Assembly: GCF_034531395.1 (NCBI RefSeq)
Contig: NZ_JARVCO010000007.1
Location: 372,001-436,000, forward strand
Reading direction: 5' to 3'
DNA from: Pontiella agarivorans
Lineage (GTDB): Bacteria > Verrucomicrobiota > Kiritimatiellia > Kiritimatiellales > Pontiellaceae
Length of the DNA: 64,000 nt
Shown: positions 30,447 through 37,414 of the stretch, piece by piece
Numbering within the stretch: position 1 is the first letter of the stretch
Layout: the number at the start of each line of letters is the position of its first letter
Made by a program: the position numbers and the translations under genes
Notes under the pieces: generated by a model
Databases searched by the model: none
Seen by the model: the letters and a program-made list of their open reading frames with translations, nothing else
What the model was told of the DNA's origin: nothing

Positions 30447-33400
30447 ATGATTGATGTGGCGATTGCGGGAAAACTGTCGGCGTTATTGCAAATGTCCACG
30501 AGGCATCTGTGCAATTGGCTGCGCGATTCTTTGTCAAAGCTGGATCAGGACTGGTGGAACTCGTTGGTTCTTTCCAATCTGTCGTATCAGCAGCGCCGGC
30601 GGGTGGAGCAAAGCGGGGTGACAACTCTTTCGCAGCTTGATCTAGCGGCTTTGTTACGTGTGTTGGATCGCAACTGGTATGAGATCTCGACGCGGTTCAA
30701 TCTGACGAATCAGGATCGTAACTATCTCAAGGAGATGCAGACCGTGCGCAACCGTTGGGCGCATATGGATGCGCATGGGATTGAGCCTGACGACGTTTAC
30801 CGCGATGTTGATACGCTTCAGCGTTTCTTGCGCGCCTTGGATGCGCCTGACACCCTGCTCGATTCCGTCGGACAGGTGAAAGATCTTGTCCGGAATGCGG
30901 AAATCGCGGGGGCGGGATCCGTGGAGCAACCCGATATTCTGCAGGAACCCCCGAAACCGGATGAACCGGAATCATCCGGTTTTTTTAGTGTCGGCAGTTT
31001 GGTTGCGCTTATTAGTAATCCTGAAAAAACGGGCGTGGTGATGAGTTCCGATGGTTCGGGCGATTCCGCCAAGTACACGGTCTTTTTGGATGGGAGGCCT
31101 CAGCCGTTTTATGTCACTCAACTTCAGCTCGCGGATCAGGTGTCCGATAAAAAGGTGGTCGAACTCAACGAGCTGCATAGTCTCTTGACGGGATTGCAGA
31201 TTAGGCATCCTTCTCTTTCGACCCTCTATTCTCTGAATGCCGCCCGCATCGATTTCGTTCCATATCAGTTTCGTCCGGCGCTGAAAATTATTCAATCCGA
31301 TCAGCCGCGCCTTTTGATTGCCGATAGCGTTGGTGTGGGCAAGACCATCGAGGCGGGGTTGATCCTGCGTGAGCTGCAGGCGCGGAGTAATGTGGAGTCC
31401 GTGCTGATTGTTTGTCCCAAGCCGCTCGTTGCCGAGCGCAAGTGGGAGCTGGAAATGAAGCGTTTCGATGAGCGCTTTGTCCCGCTTGACGGCAAAGCTC
31501 TGCGCCATTGCATTCATGAAACTGATTTGGATGGGGAGTGGCCGGACTCGCATGCCAAGGCCATCCTTCCGTACTCACTTCTTCAGGATGAGGCTTTGTT
31601 GAACGGCAATGCGAATGGTCGGAAGAAGCAACTGGGTCTGCTCGATCTCGATCCTCCGCCTAGGTTCGATCTGGTTATCGTGGATGAGGCGCACCATGTC
31701 AGGAATGCCTCTACCCACGCTTATAAAGCGGTTAGCTATTTTTGTGAGCATGCCGAGGCGGTTGTTTTGCTCACGGCAACCCCGGTGCAAATGGGCAACA
31801 ACGATCTGTTTACGTTGCTGAATCTGTTGCGCCCTGATCTGGTGATCGATCCTGAAACCTTCGGGCACATGGCCGAACCCAATCCCTTCATCAACAAAGC
31901 CGTTAATCTGACGCGTGCGGGAGATGACGATTGGCAGGCAGGTGCTGTGGAAGCTCTGAACAATGCCGCGGGTACCGCATGGGGACAATCCATCCTAAAG
32001 AACAGTCCCGGATTCCAGACTTTGGTGAACGCGCTCGAAAAAAGCCCGTTATCGCGGGAAGAGCGTGTTGGTCTTGTGCGTCAGATGGAGGGATTCCACA
32101 GTTTTTCGCGGCTGATTAATCGAACGCGGCGCAGGGATATAGGAACCTTTTGTACCCGCAAGCCGGAGACCGTGGCGGTTGATTTCACGGAAGCTCAAAA
32201 GCAACTGCATACCGATCTGTTGAATTTTCAGGCCAAGGCGTTGGCGATTGTGCACGGTAGCCAAAACGTGCAGTTCATGATGAGCACGATCCGTCGTCAG
32301 GCGGCAAGCTGCATCTTTGGTTTGGCGCCGTTTATCTCCGATATTGTTCAACGACGGATCTCTGAACTCGAATGGCAGGAATCAGCGGACGATAACGGCG
32401 AACCGCCTGAATTTGTTAAGGTGCTGGAAAAAGAGGCGCGGGATATTGTCGCAGCGGCGAATGCATTGCCTCCGGAAGATCCCAAATATGACGCACTTCG
32501 GCGCATCGTGAACGGGAAGATTGAATTGCCGAATAACAAGCTGATGGTTTTCAGCACCTTCCGGCACACGTTGGCTTACCTAGAGCGGAAACTCCGCGCC
32601 GACGGTATTCGCGTTGGTATGGTGCACGGGAACGTTAAGGATGAAGACCGTCTTGTGCTGCGCAACCGTTTCGAGCTTCCCAAGGAAGATTCCGCCGCTT
32701 TGGACGTGCTGCTCTTTTCCGAGGTTGGGTGCGAGGGCCTCGACTATCAGTTCTGCGACATGATGGTCAATTATGATCTGCCGTGGAATCCCATGCGGAT
32801 CGAGCAGCGCATCGGCCGCATCGATCGCCGTGGGCAAAAGAGTGAGGCGGTCGGCATCTACAACATGGTTACGCCCGGCACGGTTGACGCGGACATTTAC
32901 AACCGCTGTCTATCGCGTATCGGCGTCTTCGAGGCCAGCATCGGGGAGTGCGAAGAAATTTTGGGGGATATCACCCGCGAGATCAGGAATATCGCCGATA
33001 ACCTCGAGCTCACAAAAAAAGAGCGTCAGTCAAAGCTGGAGCAACTGGCCGACAACGAAGTCCGCAAGGTTCAGGAACAGCAGCGTTTGGAAGAGCGTGA
33101 GCACGAACTCTTTGGCCTGAGGCTTCCCCGCAATGTCCCCGATGCCGAACTACGGGCATCCGAAAGCTATTGGCTTTCGTCGGCATCTCTTCAGCGCTTT
33201 GTGCTTCAATATCTGAACCGGCGCCTCGGTCAATCGGAATATATCTTGGGCGAAAAACCGCTGAAAACCCTGCGCCTGTCGCAGGAGGCCCGTGGAAAGC
33301 TGTTGGAGGACTATCGCAAGTTGGCCGTCTCTAAGACTCCCATGAATCGGGATTGGGAAAAATGGCTCAAGGGGGCCGAACTCCATGCCTCCATCACCTT

Positions 33401-34016
33401 CGACTCCGCCTGTGCCGCGGATCATCGCGAGTCGCTATTCATCATGCCCCTGCACCCGTTGGTGCGGCAGGCCGCGAGCTATCTCGATGTCGCCGAACCC
33501 GTCCACACGGCGTTGCGCGTGCGGGGCAATGGACTGGTTCCGGGCAGTTATCCTTTCGCTGTCTATGCATGGGAAATCAAAGGACTTCGTCCGGAACTTC
33601 GGCTTGTTCCCGTTTGCGACAACGAAGAAATAAGGCTGGGCTTCTTCGACTTCCTTGAATCGGGCGCCGCGGTTGATCCCGTGCAACATCCGGTGCAGGA
33701 GGTGGAGGTTGACTCCCTCGATAAGGTGCATCATGAGTTATGGTCATTGGAGAAGGCGGAGCATCAGGCCCAGACCGCCGAGATGGTTCGGTTCCGGCAG
33801 GAAAGTCTCGAAACCAGTACCCGGGGGCGAGTGAATCTGTTGGAGGGTCGGCTTAGCGAGGCAACCAATGCGAATATCCAAAGAATGCGAGAGAGTCAGC
33901 TTAAAAAATGCCGCGTTGATTATGAGCGGAAGAGGGCAGAACTTGAATCTGCACAATTAACCGCTGACATTCATGCTCGGCCTGTTGTGTTTGGAGTCTT
34001 GGTGGTGGAGGAGTAA
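30447..34016 (+). CDS. HEPN (Swt1-type)-SNF2 helicase, candidate defence protein
   Basis: A 1189-residue protein. Residues about 1-150 form a helical Swt1-type HEPN domain with the R-x4-H ribonuclease motif RNRWAH (101-106). Residues about 280-830 are a SNF2/RapA-like helicase: Walker A DSVGVGKTIEAG (about 292-303), DEAH in VDEAHHVRN (about 411), LLTATPVQMGNNDLF, and the second half with VHGNVKDEDRL and RIGRIDRRGQ. The last 150 residues are coiled-coil-rich. ATG 30447 follows GGGGAAGGG and is preferred over the open frame from 30387. No palindromic repeats occur in it, unlike most of the window. Paired with the GHKL/HNH gene. Antiviral role is inferred from architecture; no phage genes are adjacent. 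Confidence 0.85.
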   Translation: MIDVAIAGKLSALLQMSTRHLCNWLRDSLSKLDQDWWNSLVLSNLSYQQRRRVEQSGVTTLSQLDLAALLRVLDRNWYEISTRFNLTNQDRNYLKEMQTVRNRWAHMDAHGIEPDDVYRDVDTLQRFLRALDAPDTLLDSVGQVKDLVRNAEIAGAGSVEQPDILQEPPKPDEPESSGFFSVGSLVALISNPEKTGVVMSSDGSGDSAKYTVFLDGRPQPFYVTQLQLADQVSDKKVVELNELHSLLTGLQIRHPSLSTLYSLNAARIDFVPYQFRPALKIIQSDQPRLLIADSVGVGKTIEAGLILRELQARSNVESVLIVCPKPLVAERKWELEMKRFDERFVPLDGKALRHCIHETDLDGEWPDSHAKAILPYSLLQDEALLNGNANGRKKQLGLLDLDPPPRFDLVIVDEAHHVRNASTHAYKAVSYFCEHAEAVVLLTATPVQMGNNDLFTLLNLLRPDLVIDPETFGHMAEPNPFINKAVNLTRAGDDDWQAGAVEALNNAAGTAWGQSILKNSPGFQTLVNALEKSPLSREERVGLVRQMEGFHSFSRLINRTRRRDIGTFCTRKPETVAVDFTEAQKQLHTDLLNFQAKALAIVHGSQNVQFMMSTIRRQAASCIFGLAPFISDIVQRRISELEWQESADDNGEPPEFVKVLEKEARDIVAAANALPPEDPKYDALRRIVNGKIELPNNKLMVFSTFRHTLAYLERKLRADGIRVGMVHGNVKDEDRLVLRNRFELPKEDSAALDVLLFSEVGCEGLDYQFCDMMVNYDLPWNPMRIEQRIGRIDRRGQKSEAVGIYNMVTPGTVDADIYNRCLSRIGVFEASIGECEEILGDITREIRNIADNLELTKKERQSKLEQLADNEVRKVQEQQRLEEREHELFGLRLPRNVPDAELRASESYWLSSASLQRFVLQYLNRRLGQSEYILGEKPLKTLRLSQEARGKLLEDYRKLAVSKTPMNRDWEKWLKGAELHASITFDSACAADHRESLFIMPLHPLVRQAASYLDVAEPVHTALRVRGNGLVPGSYPFAVYAWEIKGLRPELRLVPVCDNEEIRLGFFDFLESGAAVDPVQHPVQEVEVDSLDKVHHELWSLEKAEHQAQTAEMVRFRQESLETSTRGRVNLLEGRLSEATNANIQRMRESQLKKCRVDYERKRAELESAQLTADIHARPVVFGVLVVEE

Positions 34017-34133
34017 AATGCCGCCGCCGAAGCCCGTAATCGTTTTGTCATCCAAAACGCTGATGATTTATACATCCCCCACAAAACTCCTGGCGGTATG
34101 CGCGATCGGTTCTTGAAGGAAATGGAGAAATAA
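34017..34133 (+). pseudogene. 38-codon gene end in frame behind the helicase stop
   Basis: Directly after the TAA at 34014 the same frame stays open for 38 codons and ends in TAA at 34131. It has no ATG of its own at its beginning. Its composition is protein-like: EARNRFVIQNADDLYIPHKT, then GGMRDRFLKEMEK. GGAG in its last codons is the ribosome-binding site of the next gene. It looks like the 3' end of a deleted gene that once sat between the two island genes; a nonsense mutation in a longer helicase is the alternative. Family not recognised. Confidence 0.5.
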
Positions 34134-34135
34134 CA

Positions 34136-37100
34136 ATGCCCAGTGATTATGAATCGATAACCAAAAGCAACATTAAGGATTTGGGAGAACGGACTTCGTC
34201 CAGAAAATCGCAGGTTAATCTATACTCACAGCCTACCCACTTTATCTATGAGCTATTGCAGAATGCCGACGACTATGGTGCGACAACAGTCGAGTTTCGG
34301 CTAAATCCAGACGAATTAATTTTGGAGCACAACGGAACACCTTTTCAGGAAGAAAATGTCCGGGCAATCAGCGATTTTGAAAATAGCACAAGCAAGGATG
34401 ATGAAACTAAAACCGGGCGGTTTGGCCTGGGCTTCAAGTCCGTCTTCGCTTTTACAGCAACCCCGCAGATTATTTCAGGAGATGAAAGTTTTGAGATATA
34501 CGGATTATACCGATTGCGGGGAATAGATCAGCCTGACGATTTCCCCAACGAGAAAACCCGTATCGTGCTCCCCTTTAACCACTCCACAGAAAACCCCGAT
34601 TTTGTCGAGCAGGAAAAAAAAGCCGAAGATGCTTATGAAGAGATAAGCGCAAAACTACAGGACATTGGCCTGACGACGCTCTTGTTTACCAAAAATGTGC
34701 AGGAAGTCAGGTGGTCGTTTGGCAGTGCGACTGGCCACTATTTGAAGGAGATTTATGATAATGGGCAAGTCTATCTCACGGATGGAGAGTCGGAGCAGAC
34801 GTATCTTGTGTTCCAAAAATCTATCGAATGGGAGGAGGAGAAGCTAAATCCCATATCCATCGCATTTCTCATGGAAAATGGACGTATAGTGGAAGCTCCG
34901 AATCGAAGTCTGTTTGTTCTGTTTGAAACCGCATTGGAAACGCATCTTGGTTTTTTGGTCAATGGCGCATTCCGTACAACTCCCAGCCGCGAGAACATTC
35001 GCTATGAAGATGCGTTGAATAAGCATCTCATTCTGCAATTGGCAGAGCTCTTGGGTGAGAGTATGGGACAAATTAAAACCATGGGCTTACTGGATGTTTC
35101 TTTTGTGCAAAGTCTGCCTATAAAAGTTACTGATGTTAGCAGTTGGGGAAAGGCAGACTGGCAACCGGATTATCCAAGGCAGTGGCCATTCATGCCCTTG
35201 TACCAGCGCGTAAGGGAATGTTTTCTTAATGGGGAGTATTTGCCAAAAGATCAGGATGGAAAACACGCGAATGCAGGAAATGCACTGCTTGCCCGCGGGG
35301 AAGAGTTGCGTGCATTGTTCCCGGAAAATATATCCAAGTATATTTGGGGAAAGCCACGGATGTGGCTCGATGGTGGCATAACGACGGATAAGACGCCCGC
35401 GTTACGGGACTACTTGATTCATGAGCTTGCGGTAAAAGAGGTTTCCCCTCCGGATGTTCTGGGGCGTCTGGGAACATTGGGGACTTTGGCTATCCCACTC
35501 TTCGAGAATTCGTCTCTGGCATGGTTGATTCAATTCTTCCTATTTGCGAATGCGAAAAAATCCCACAAAATAGAGGTTCTTAGTAAAAATGTCCATTGCA
35601 TTCCGTTACAGTCCGGCGAATGGGTTGGCGCAAAAAATGGGAATGTCGTGTTCCATGAGAAGGCTACTGTTTCAACCGATATACCTATGTTGTTGTTCCT
35701 GCTAAAAGAAGAGGCTGGCGAGAAATGGGAAGATGTGAAGGAGTTTCTTGAATTTCTTGGGGTTCATCAATTTAACAGCCGGGACGAAATTTGGATTTTG
35801 CTGAATACGGTGTATTGCTCTGAAAAAAAAGTTACGATTTCCGTTCAAGCTCATTTGAATCATATGCGTACGTTCGTTGCTTATTGGGAGGATAATAGAT
35901 ATGACGCACATGCTTTGTTTTCAGGGGTTCCAATCTTTTTGGTGGATGAGTATCCCGGTGTCGAAGACGGGGTGTTGCTGAAAACTGAACAGGTCGATTT
36001 CTTCTTGCGAGGGAGCCAGTGCTATATCGATCAACCGATTAAAACAACCTTCTTGTCGGATGTGTTGAGTTGCAATGACGAAAATACCCGTTCACTACTA
36101 TCCCATTGTTACGTTGGTCTAGGTCAGGAATTCATTGATTTCGCAGAAAGTTTGGGCGTTCAAGGTAAGATAGAACCAATTAAGTGCAATGGGTGGGAGA
36201 GTGAAGGGATAAAGAGGGAGTTTAACAGGGAGAGATCAACATTATGTCACTCGAATTATAAGTTGCCGGAATATTTGGAGGATTTATTGAAGAAGGCCGT
36301 TGCGCCGGATAGTTTGGAATACGAACGGAAATTCAATGCCTCAGTTCTAATATGGGAGCTGATGTGCAAGGCAGGTGAACCTCATTTAACCGCACAGTAT
36401 CAGGCCAACAGAAACCGTAATACCCAGTTTCAATCCTCGAAATTAATACAGCAATTAGCGGAATTCCCTTGGTTGTTGCATAAGGATGGTGGCTGGAAGC
36501 GTCCTTGCGATTTGACTAATGAGACGCTTTACACGGGGGTGACGGATGATGATCCAACACCGACTTTCGATATTTCAGAGGCAACGAATGGTTGGTTAAA
36601 GCTTGTTGGCTTTGGGCAAAGCGAGGAACGGCAGGCGGCAGCAAGGGTTTTAGGCATCGAACAGGATGACGTGCTGGTACTTGAGCAGTTGAAAAAGGAT
36701 CCTAAGCAATATGAAAAGCTCCGTTCACAGTGTTCAGAAAATGAATCTGTTGAGATTGCCACAATCAATGTGGAGGAAGGTATGGGCGACAGTTTTAACA
36801 AGCCAGGGAAAACAGAACTGAATGAACATTATGAGTCCGAGGATGATTCCTTTTCGGAAACTTCAAAAAATCCCGTGCAGAGGGAGAAAAAGCTGGATGC
36901 AGGGGTCAAAGAACGAAAAAGGAGTGAACCCCCGTCTTCTGTAAGAAAACAGGTGCGGGTGAGTGAAACTCTTGAGTGCAAAGATTCACAAACGAGGGAA
37001 ACGATACTTCAGTGGTATAAAGGTAAATGTCAGATTTGTGGCGAGACTTGGCCAAAACGGAATGGGAAACCGTATTTTGTGGCGGCATATCTCATCGAAC

Positions 37101-37363
37101 ACAAAAAGGGACGTTGGATTGATGAGCCCGGCAATGCGATATGTCTATGTGCGAAACATTTTGCGCAGTGGCGTCATGCATCGAAGCAGCAATGCTATGA
37201 GATTCCCGAGTGGATTATGGCGCAGAAAACATCGAAGGAAGGCGGGATGTTTCCTTTGAGGCTGGAGTTTGAGCTGTTGGGTAAAAAGGAGAGTATCAAA
37301 TATCGCGAGGATCATTTCCTTGCGTTGCGCTCAATGGTGAAAAGTGACCATGATCAACGGTAA
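34136..37363 (+). CDS. GHKL (sacsin/MORC-like) ATPase with C-terminal HNH-like domain
   Basis: A 1075-residue protein, visibly more AT-rich than its surroundings. The N-terminus is a sacsin-type GHKL ATPase: N-box YELLQNADDYGA (38-49), LEHNG (63-67, G1), and GRFGLGFKSVFA (94-105, G2). A long middle region of unknown fold follows, then an acidic, low-complexity linker (about 870-950). The C-terminus (about 960-1010) has C965-x2-C968, H989, N1000 and C1005-x2-H1008, the spacing of an HNH nuclease finger. Start is ATG 34136 with GGAG nine bases upstream. Inference: ATP-driven clamp with a DNA-cutting tail, working with the HEPN helicase. Other reading: the finger is structural only. Confidence 0.82.
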   Translation: MPSDYESITKSNIKDLGERTSSRKSQVNLYSQPTHFIYELLQNADDYGATTVEFRLNPDELILEHNGTPFQEENVRAISDFENSTSKDDETKTGRFGLGFKSVFAFTATPQIISGDESFEIYGLYRLRGIDQPDDFPNEKTRIVLPFNHSTENPDFVEQEKKAEDAYEEISAKLQDIGLTTLLFTKNVQEVRWSFGSATGHYLKEIYDNGQVYLTDGESEQTYLVFQKSIEWEEEKLNPISIAFLMENGRIVEAPNRSLFVLFETALETHLGFLVNGAFRTTPSRENIRYEDALNKHLILQLAELLGESMGQIKTMGLLDVSFVQSLPIKVTDVSSWGKADWQPDYPRQWPFMPLYQRVRECFLNGEYLPKDQDGKHANAGNALLARGEELRALFPENISKYIWGKPRMWLDGGITTDKTPALRDYLIHELAVKEVSPPDVLGRLGTLGTLAIPLFENSSLAWLIQFFLFANAKKSHKIEVLSKNVHCIPLQSGEWVGAKNGNVVFHEKATVSTDIPMLLFLLKEEAGEKWEDVKEFLEFLGVHQFNSRDEIWILLNTVYCSEKKVTISVQAHLNHMRTFVAYWEDNRYDAHALFSGVPIFLVDEYPGVEDGVLLKTEQVDFFLRGSQCYIDQPIKTTFLSDVLSCNDENTRSLLSHCYVGLGQEFIDFAESLGVQGKIEPIKCNGWESEGIKREFNRERSTLCHSNYKLPEYLEDLLKKAVAPDSLEYERKFNASVLIWELMCKAGEPHLTAQYQANRNRNTQFQSSKLIQQLAEFPWLLHKDGGWKRPCDLTNETLYTGVTDDDPTPTFDISEATNGWLKLVGFGQSEERQAAARVLGIEQDDVLVLEQLKKDPKQYEKLRSQCSENESVEIATINVEEGMGDSFNKPGKTELNEHYESEDDSFSETSKNPVQREKKLDAGVKERKRSEPPSSVRKQVRVSETLECKDSQTRETILQWYKGKCQICGETWPKRNGKPYFVAAYLIEHKKGRWIDEPGNAICLCAKHFAQWRHASKQQCYEIPEWIMAQKTSKEGGMFPLRLEFELLGKKESIKYREDHFLALRSMVKSDHDQR

Positions 37364-37395
37364 GCAGTCAAGGGTTTAAATTTTTCGTCCCACAT
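37354..37395 (-). pseudogene. 5' fragment of a second methyltransferase gene
   Basis: ATG at 37395 with a good ribosome-binding site (TTTGGAGAAAGCC) begins MWDEKFKPLTAYR and then stops. The opening MWDEKF matches the start of TehB-like methyltransferases such as the intact gene at 29707-30297. After about eight codons it runs into the end of the GHKL gene. This suggests the island joined the chromosome within a methyltransferase gene. The fragment is very short, so chance is possible. Confidence 0.45.
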
Positions 37396-37414
37396 GGCTT
37401 TCTCCAAATAAGAA

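Follow-up and report, generated by a model that had tools for sequence, protein, structure and literature searches.

A mobile helicase–GHKL ATPase gene pair that is probably an unnamed anti-virus system

We found that a HEPN-SNF2 helicase gene and a sacsin-type GHKL ATPase gene in Pontiella agarivorans belong to a conserved, horizontally carried operon in which the GHKL gene is swapped as a cassette beside a constant helicase. The pair lies in a 64,000-nt stretch of DNA, called the window below; both open reading frames are intact and arranged in tandem on the + strand (30447–37363; Table 1). Exchange of the GHKL gene is a new observation and the most informative feature of the pair, which is probably an unnamed anti-virus system, and it offers a direct way to test which part recognises the invader. 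The original prediction, a defence pair made of a HEPN-helicase and a GHKL ATPase with an HNH-like tail, was supported in its domains, acquisition, conservation as neighbours, active sites and genomic context, while an HNH nuclease and an obligatory HEPN domain had to be given up.

Table 1 Features of the helicase–GHKL locus in window coordinates
Feature	Position	Strand	Remarks
Gene 1	30447..34016	+	1189 aa; HEPN_Swt1, aa 1-140; RapA/DrmD-like SNF2 ATPase, aa ~181-1189
HEPN RNase motif RNRWAH, aa 101-106	30747..30764	+	RNxWAH (RxxxxH-type HEPN motif) kept in 64 of 65 HEPN-bearing relatives
Walker A GVGKT, aa 296-300	31332..31346	+	Kept in 91 of 92 helicases
Walker B DEAHH, aa 413-417	31683..31697	+	DEAH kept in 91-92 of 92 helicases; D, E and first H in all 92
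Spacer between genes	34017..34135	+	119 nt, unusually long in this family; in-frame open stretch of 38 aa (NAAAEARNRFVIQNADDLYIPHKTPGGMRDRFLKEMEK)
Gene 2	34136..37363	+	1075 aa; sacsin/Hsp90/GyrB-type GHKL ATPase; fast-evolving middle; C-terminal putative zinc finger
GHKL ATPase and S5-like region, aa 27-330	34214..35125	+	E39, N43, D46, G94, G97, G99 and R285 invariant in an alignment of 50 relatives
Putative degenerate McrA-type HNH zinc finger, aa 940-1075	36953..37360	+	C965, C968, C1005 and H1008 kept; A984-Y985 stand in for the catalytic HH and F1009 for the last His
Remnant similar to the start (5') of the neighbouring methyltransferase gene (ATGTGGGACGAAAAAT...)	37377..37408	-	Right insertion border; short match, 83-86% over 24-29 nt

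Architecture and conservation of the pair

Profile searches upheld the predicted domains of gene 1. HEPN_Swt1 (PF18731) scored 62.9 bits against a family cut-off of 27.5, SNF2-rel_dom and Helicase_C were matched as well, and the RNRWAH motif occupied exactly the residues expected. RapA was the closest solved relative by sequence and by fold, matching the AlphaFold model (mean pLDDT 80) over 738 residues (Z 21.4, rmsd 10.5). A HEPN match was absent from 27 of 92 helicases, of which at least one and perhaps a few are truncated, and at least seven losses or gains of the domain were needed on the tree, such that the obligatory core is the helicase plus the GHKL ATPase. Two HEPN-less helicases (L055:3217-6597 and L058:9770-13150) carried another N-terminal extension of ~70 aa where HEPN would be, and one locus (L042:9016-9624) encoded a HEPN protein on its own, ~200 aa long with ~50% identity to the window HEPN and no helicase fusion.

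The sacsin-like GHKL call for gene 2 was likewise sustained by both profile and fold. The sacsin ATPase domain (SACS) scored 71.2 bits against a cut-off of 32.8, a profile search matched sacsin SR1 structures (8.5e-25), ELLQNADD and GRFGLGFKS lay where predicted, and E39, N43, D46, G94, G97, G99 and R285 were invariant in an alignment of 50 relatives. The AlphaFold model (mean pLDDT 81) matched the folds of sacsin, GyrB and Hsp90 at Z ~15–16 (sacsin 15.9) over the first 440 residues, the whole-protein search barely probing the middle (aa ~440–900). Across homologues, active-site residues of the HEPN, helicase and GHKL domains were near-invariant, the exception being the HNH catalytic histidine.

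For the tail of gene 2, the predicted spacing of C965/C968, H989, N1000 and C1005/H1008 was present. The GHKL family profile found the HNH domain of EcoKMcrA (1.4e-8), and C965, C968 and C1005 were conserved across GHKL relatives. The catalytic histidines that a nuclease would need were missing: EVHHVIP of McrA aligned with FEAVEL in the family and VAAYLIE in the window, its final CH with CA and HF, respectively, and of the 55 relatives whose motif could be resolved, just 2 had a His at the McrA catalytic site. This loss, in the window and nearly all relatives, together with an HNH_2 score below the cut-off (14.5 vs 21 bits), ruled out an HNH nuclease as far as sequence can tell, and the tail appears from its residues to be a zinc finger descended from an HNH domain.

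The helicase and GHKL genes form a conserved operon. An alignment of the helicase core, used to scan GTDB genomes, gave at least 559 relatives, of which the best 80 were fetched with their flanks, along with four viral contigs. As predicted, the two genes were conserved neighbours, with GHKL directly downstream of the helicase in 81 of the 83 loci that had enough downstream sequence; the genes overlapped in 39 of these loci and were at most 20 nt apart in 26. Both exceptions were defective, one being a nearly truncated contig and the other a decayed copy. Helicase and GHKL distances co-varied (Mantel r = 0.58, a value reached in none of 999 permutations). Among the best 80 of at least 559 loci, many of them in metagenome bins, labels came from ~20 phyla and included one archaeon, and over this range a single mobile operon unites proteins that annotation tools file apart as DrmD-like and TmtA-like. 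No GHKL gene was found in the readable flanks of four remoter DrmD-like helicases (~30% identity; L038, L164, L165 and L166).

Clustering of 822 neighbour proteins revealed no third conserved gene, every family being confined to 8 loci or fewer. Individual loci did contain additional genes. One (G003, L035:3983-5104) had a YhcG-type PD-(D/E)XK (DUF1016) gene between helicase and GHKL, and four others (L066:3935-4582, L067, L051 and L055) had in that position a common protein of ~200–270 aa (215 aa in L066) with no Pfam match. Three HEPN-less rhizobial pairs (L030:8280-8834, L031:8294-8824 and L032:8285-8815) were preceded by a gene of 176–184 aa that overlapped or abutted the helicase start; it had no Pfam match and is possibly a third component.

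Cassette exchange, mobility and genomic context

Across the set, mean identity was 57% in the helicase core vs 21% in the GHKL middle region. Closely related loci showed the same contrast in helicase and GHKL identity (L070 and L128, 92% and 22%; L061 and L128, 88% and 22%; L062 and L050, 89% and 29%; L054 and L050, 86% and 26%; L055 and L058, 89% and 34%), as did the window and the same-genus copy in genome G005 (82% and 26%). In close pairs, DNA homology continued up to ~5–40 nt from the helicase stop codon and broke off there; in several it picked up again where the GHKL gene ends or beyond it. A fossil GHKL C-terminus lay directly 3' of the present gene in 6 of 65 loci, and some of these tails were clearly of another type, with that of L128 matching the L070 GHKL and that of L062 the L048 GHKL. 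The identity contrast, sharp breakpoints and fossils together indicate that the GHKL gene was replaced in place, since evolutionary speed alone is insufficient to account for them. By analogy with HsdS, such exchange would change recognition specificity, although fast evolution and exchange of GHKL could also fit other arms races, for example plasmid or element competition.

The window copy is an insertion, which bears out the acquisition suggested in the original prediction. In two same-genus genomes (G025 and G005), orthologues of its flanking genes, a TehB-like methyltransferase (29707) and AhpF (37473), lie side by side; the ~7-kb block between them in the window was therefore inserted into what is elsewhere an empty site. 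These genes adjoin in relatives without the pair, and the oxidative-stress gene cluster in which the window copy sits is kept there. The predicted AT-richness of gene 2 was confirmed (45% GC vs 54% for the helicase and the remaining window). Gene fragments had been proposed at the edge of the island and within it: at the edge, 37380–37408 does match the methyltransferase start, while the candidate inside, the 38-aa spacer tail, is possibly a remnant of a replaced gene and had no relative among the fetched loci that would identify its source. We found no direct or inverted repeats inside the insertion edges, and promoter and terminator scans performed no better than shuffles. In genome G017, a 737-aa ORF (L141:6011-8376), judged by eye to be a probable catalase-peroxidase, fills the same AhpF–methyltransferase interval, which may therefore act as a small hotspot.

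Copies elsewhere are associated with mobile elements. G005 has its own copy at another position, beside tRNA-Pro and a tyrosine integrase; upstream of the pair in this element, one ORF (L034:6432-8627) fuses methyltransferase, HNH_4 and Peptidase_S24 domains. Rhizobial plasmids, one of them conjugative, carry copies, as does an archaeal plasmid, there among restriction-modification (R-M) genes; some of the plasmids that carry the pair are large. Complete pairs also occurred on viral-sorted contigs (L125, L126, L128 and L167, from IMG/VR and from a faecal phage clone that lacks annotation), which may be prophage cargo or misclassified islands. The distribution is patchy, with high-scoring members of the family in only 3 of 388 genomes from the phylum, and the tree intermixes phyla and one archaeon. 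Vertical inheritance is likely in Poribacteria, where seven loci form one clade and five share neighbour genes, a point against reading the pair as a horizontally carried anti-invader operon.

Flanking regions were directionally richer in defence matches than controls, consistent with the predicted proximity to defence genes. Using PADLOC matching at 1e-15, 205 families were matched among 114 flanking proteins from 14 loci, including type I and III R-M, vs 24 families, each via a single protein, among 108 control proteins from elsewhere in the same genomes; these counts are of families rather than proteins and give direction, not fold enrichment. The flanks contained R-M, Res and phage-integrase domains. 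No modification methylase was linked to the pair in the window.

Proposed mechanism and its alternatives

We lean towards a two-gene anti-invader operon, most likely anti-phage and horizontally carried, in which a RapA/DrmD-like SNF2 translocase would be the constant motor, the N-terminal HEPN RNase, where present, the effector, and the GHKL ATPase a variable sensor whose exchange alters what is recognised. The sensor role is assigned to GHKL on the basis of its low identity relative to the helicase and its cassette exchange with fossil tails. The GHKL protein, likely an ATP-driven dimeric clamp with an HNH-derived zinc finger, would form a complex with the SNF2 motor that stays idle while on the host's DNA or RNA polymerase. 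Capture of an invader cue in the middle region of GHKL would close the GHKL dimer and engage the motor, which would then juxtapose HEPN domains. Because HEPN RNases work as dimers, this pairing would lead to RNA cleavage and an arrest of growth (abortive infection). HEPN cannot be the sole effector, given the helicases that lack it, and HEPN-less members would have to use another effector or rely on a block by the motor itself. More tentatively, we propose that a sacsin/Hsp90-type ATPase serves as a swappable invader sensor licensing a HEPN-SNF2 effector, which would make the pair a widespread unnamed immune system that has the modularity of type I R-M specificity subunits but uses a chaperone-type clamp and does without DNA methylation. 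If GHKL is the sensor, the pair would serve as a bacterial model of the way in which nucleic-acid effectors are gated by sacsin/Hsp90/MORC-type ATPases.

The main rival, which we regard as plausible yet rather unlikely, is a restriction-like DNA mechanism of the kind put forward for MORC operons, where operons of GHKL, SWI2/SNF2 and HNH proteins were predicted to be R-M-like (Iyer et al. 2008, PMC2292703). Foreign DNA would be captured and looped or translocated by the SNF2 motor together with the GHKL clamp, cutting would fall to a nuclease that is separate or has escaped recognition, and HEPN would be no more than a back-up suicide module. Homology of the C-terminal finger to the EcoKMcrA HNH domain, the dispensability of HEPN and the YhcG-type gene lying between the two genes of one pair are in keeping with such targeting, but the catalytic His of HNH is lost in nearly all members, no DNA nuclease family reaches more than 8 loci and, with no methylase linked in the window, self-protection would lack an explanation.

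Maintenance of plasmids or other mobile elements, or competition among them through exclusion of rivals or HEPN addiction, is an improbable substitute for phage defence. HEPN toxins are common in addiction modules, and copies do occur on plasmids, beside an integrase and, as complete pairs, on viral-sorted contigs; many others, however, are chromosomal and lie among R-M genes, and the window pair sits by itself in a chromosome, unaccompanied by genes for replication or transfer. A housekeeping or stress complex, combining RapA-like RNA polymerase recycling with an Hsp90-like chaperone, seems very improbable: RapA, whose role in recycling RNA polymerase rather than in defence counts against a defence reading, is the closest full-length solved structure, the partner has a sacsin/Hsp90 fold and the window copy sits among oxidative-stress genes, but the family is very patchy, much transferred and cassette-exchanging in a defence neighbourhood, and relatives keep the stress cluster without it.

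Comparison with known systems

The original claim that the pair corresponds to no exact named system stands for the open-licence literature, in which we found no name for it, and gene 1 scored below the DISARM and RapA cut-offs. DISARM is a related system (PMC9142583). PADLOC DrmD was the best family match of gene 1 (386 bits, aa 183–1054) and 40 of 40 family members matched it, whereas the score against the NCBIfam equivalog (NF038317) was 287.5 bits vs a cut-off of 610. The window pair also differs in its HEPN fusion and GHKL partner and has no DrmA, DrmB or methylase beside it, and DISARM membership was ruled out by the DrmD cut-off and these missing genes. RapA shares its fold with most of the length of gene 1, but membership was ruled out by a score of 202 bits vs the NCBIfam RapA equivalog cut-off of 576.

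TmtA of Tiamat is an ATPase that forms a single-gene defence system. All 26 family GHKLs tested matched PADLOC TmtA models, for which no cut-off is given (best 2.4e-146), and window gene 2 matched at 1.8e-55 over aa 27–839, covering only part of the longer model. Unlike Tiamat, the GHKL here has an upstream helicase partner in 81 of 83 loci, a count that describes paired GHKLs only because loci were found via the helicase. Some Tiamat annotations may thus be one half of a helicase–GHKL pair.

GHKL ATPases are known to adjoin SWI2/SNF2 helicases, often with HNH nucleases, in laterally mobile MORC/paraMORC operons (Iyer et al. 2008, PMC2292703). That set is defined by MORC and paraMORC1-5, and the portions of the paper considered here describe neither a sacsin type nor a HEPN-SNF2 fusion; the HNH of the present pair, moreover, is dead. 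HEPN domains have been independently fused to SWI2/SNF2 helicases, and a Swt1-like family occurs in R-M operons (Anantharaman et al. 2013, PMC3710099), with neither a linked sacsin-type GHKL gene nor cassette exchange described in the corresponding portions of that paper. ARMADA represents a related idea (PMC12458937).

The pair resembles type I R-M in having a swapped part beside a constant motor part. In type I R-M the specificity part, HsdS, is exchanged while the motor part remains constant, whereas the present pair has no methylase and the part that it exchanges is a GHKL ATPase.
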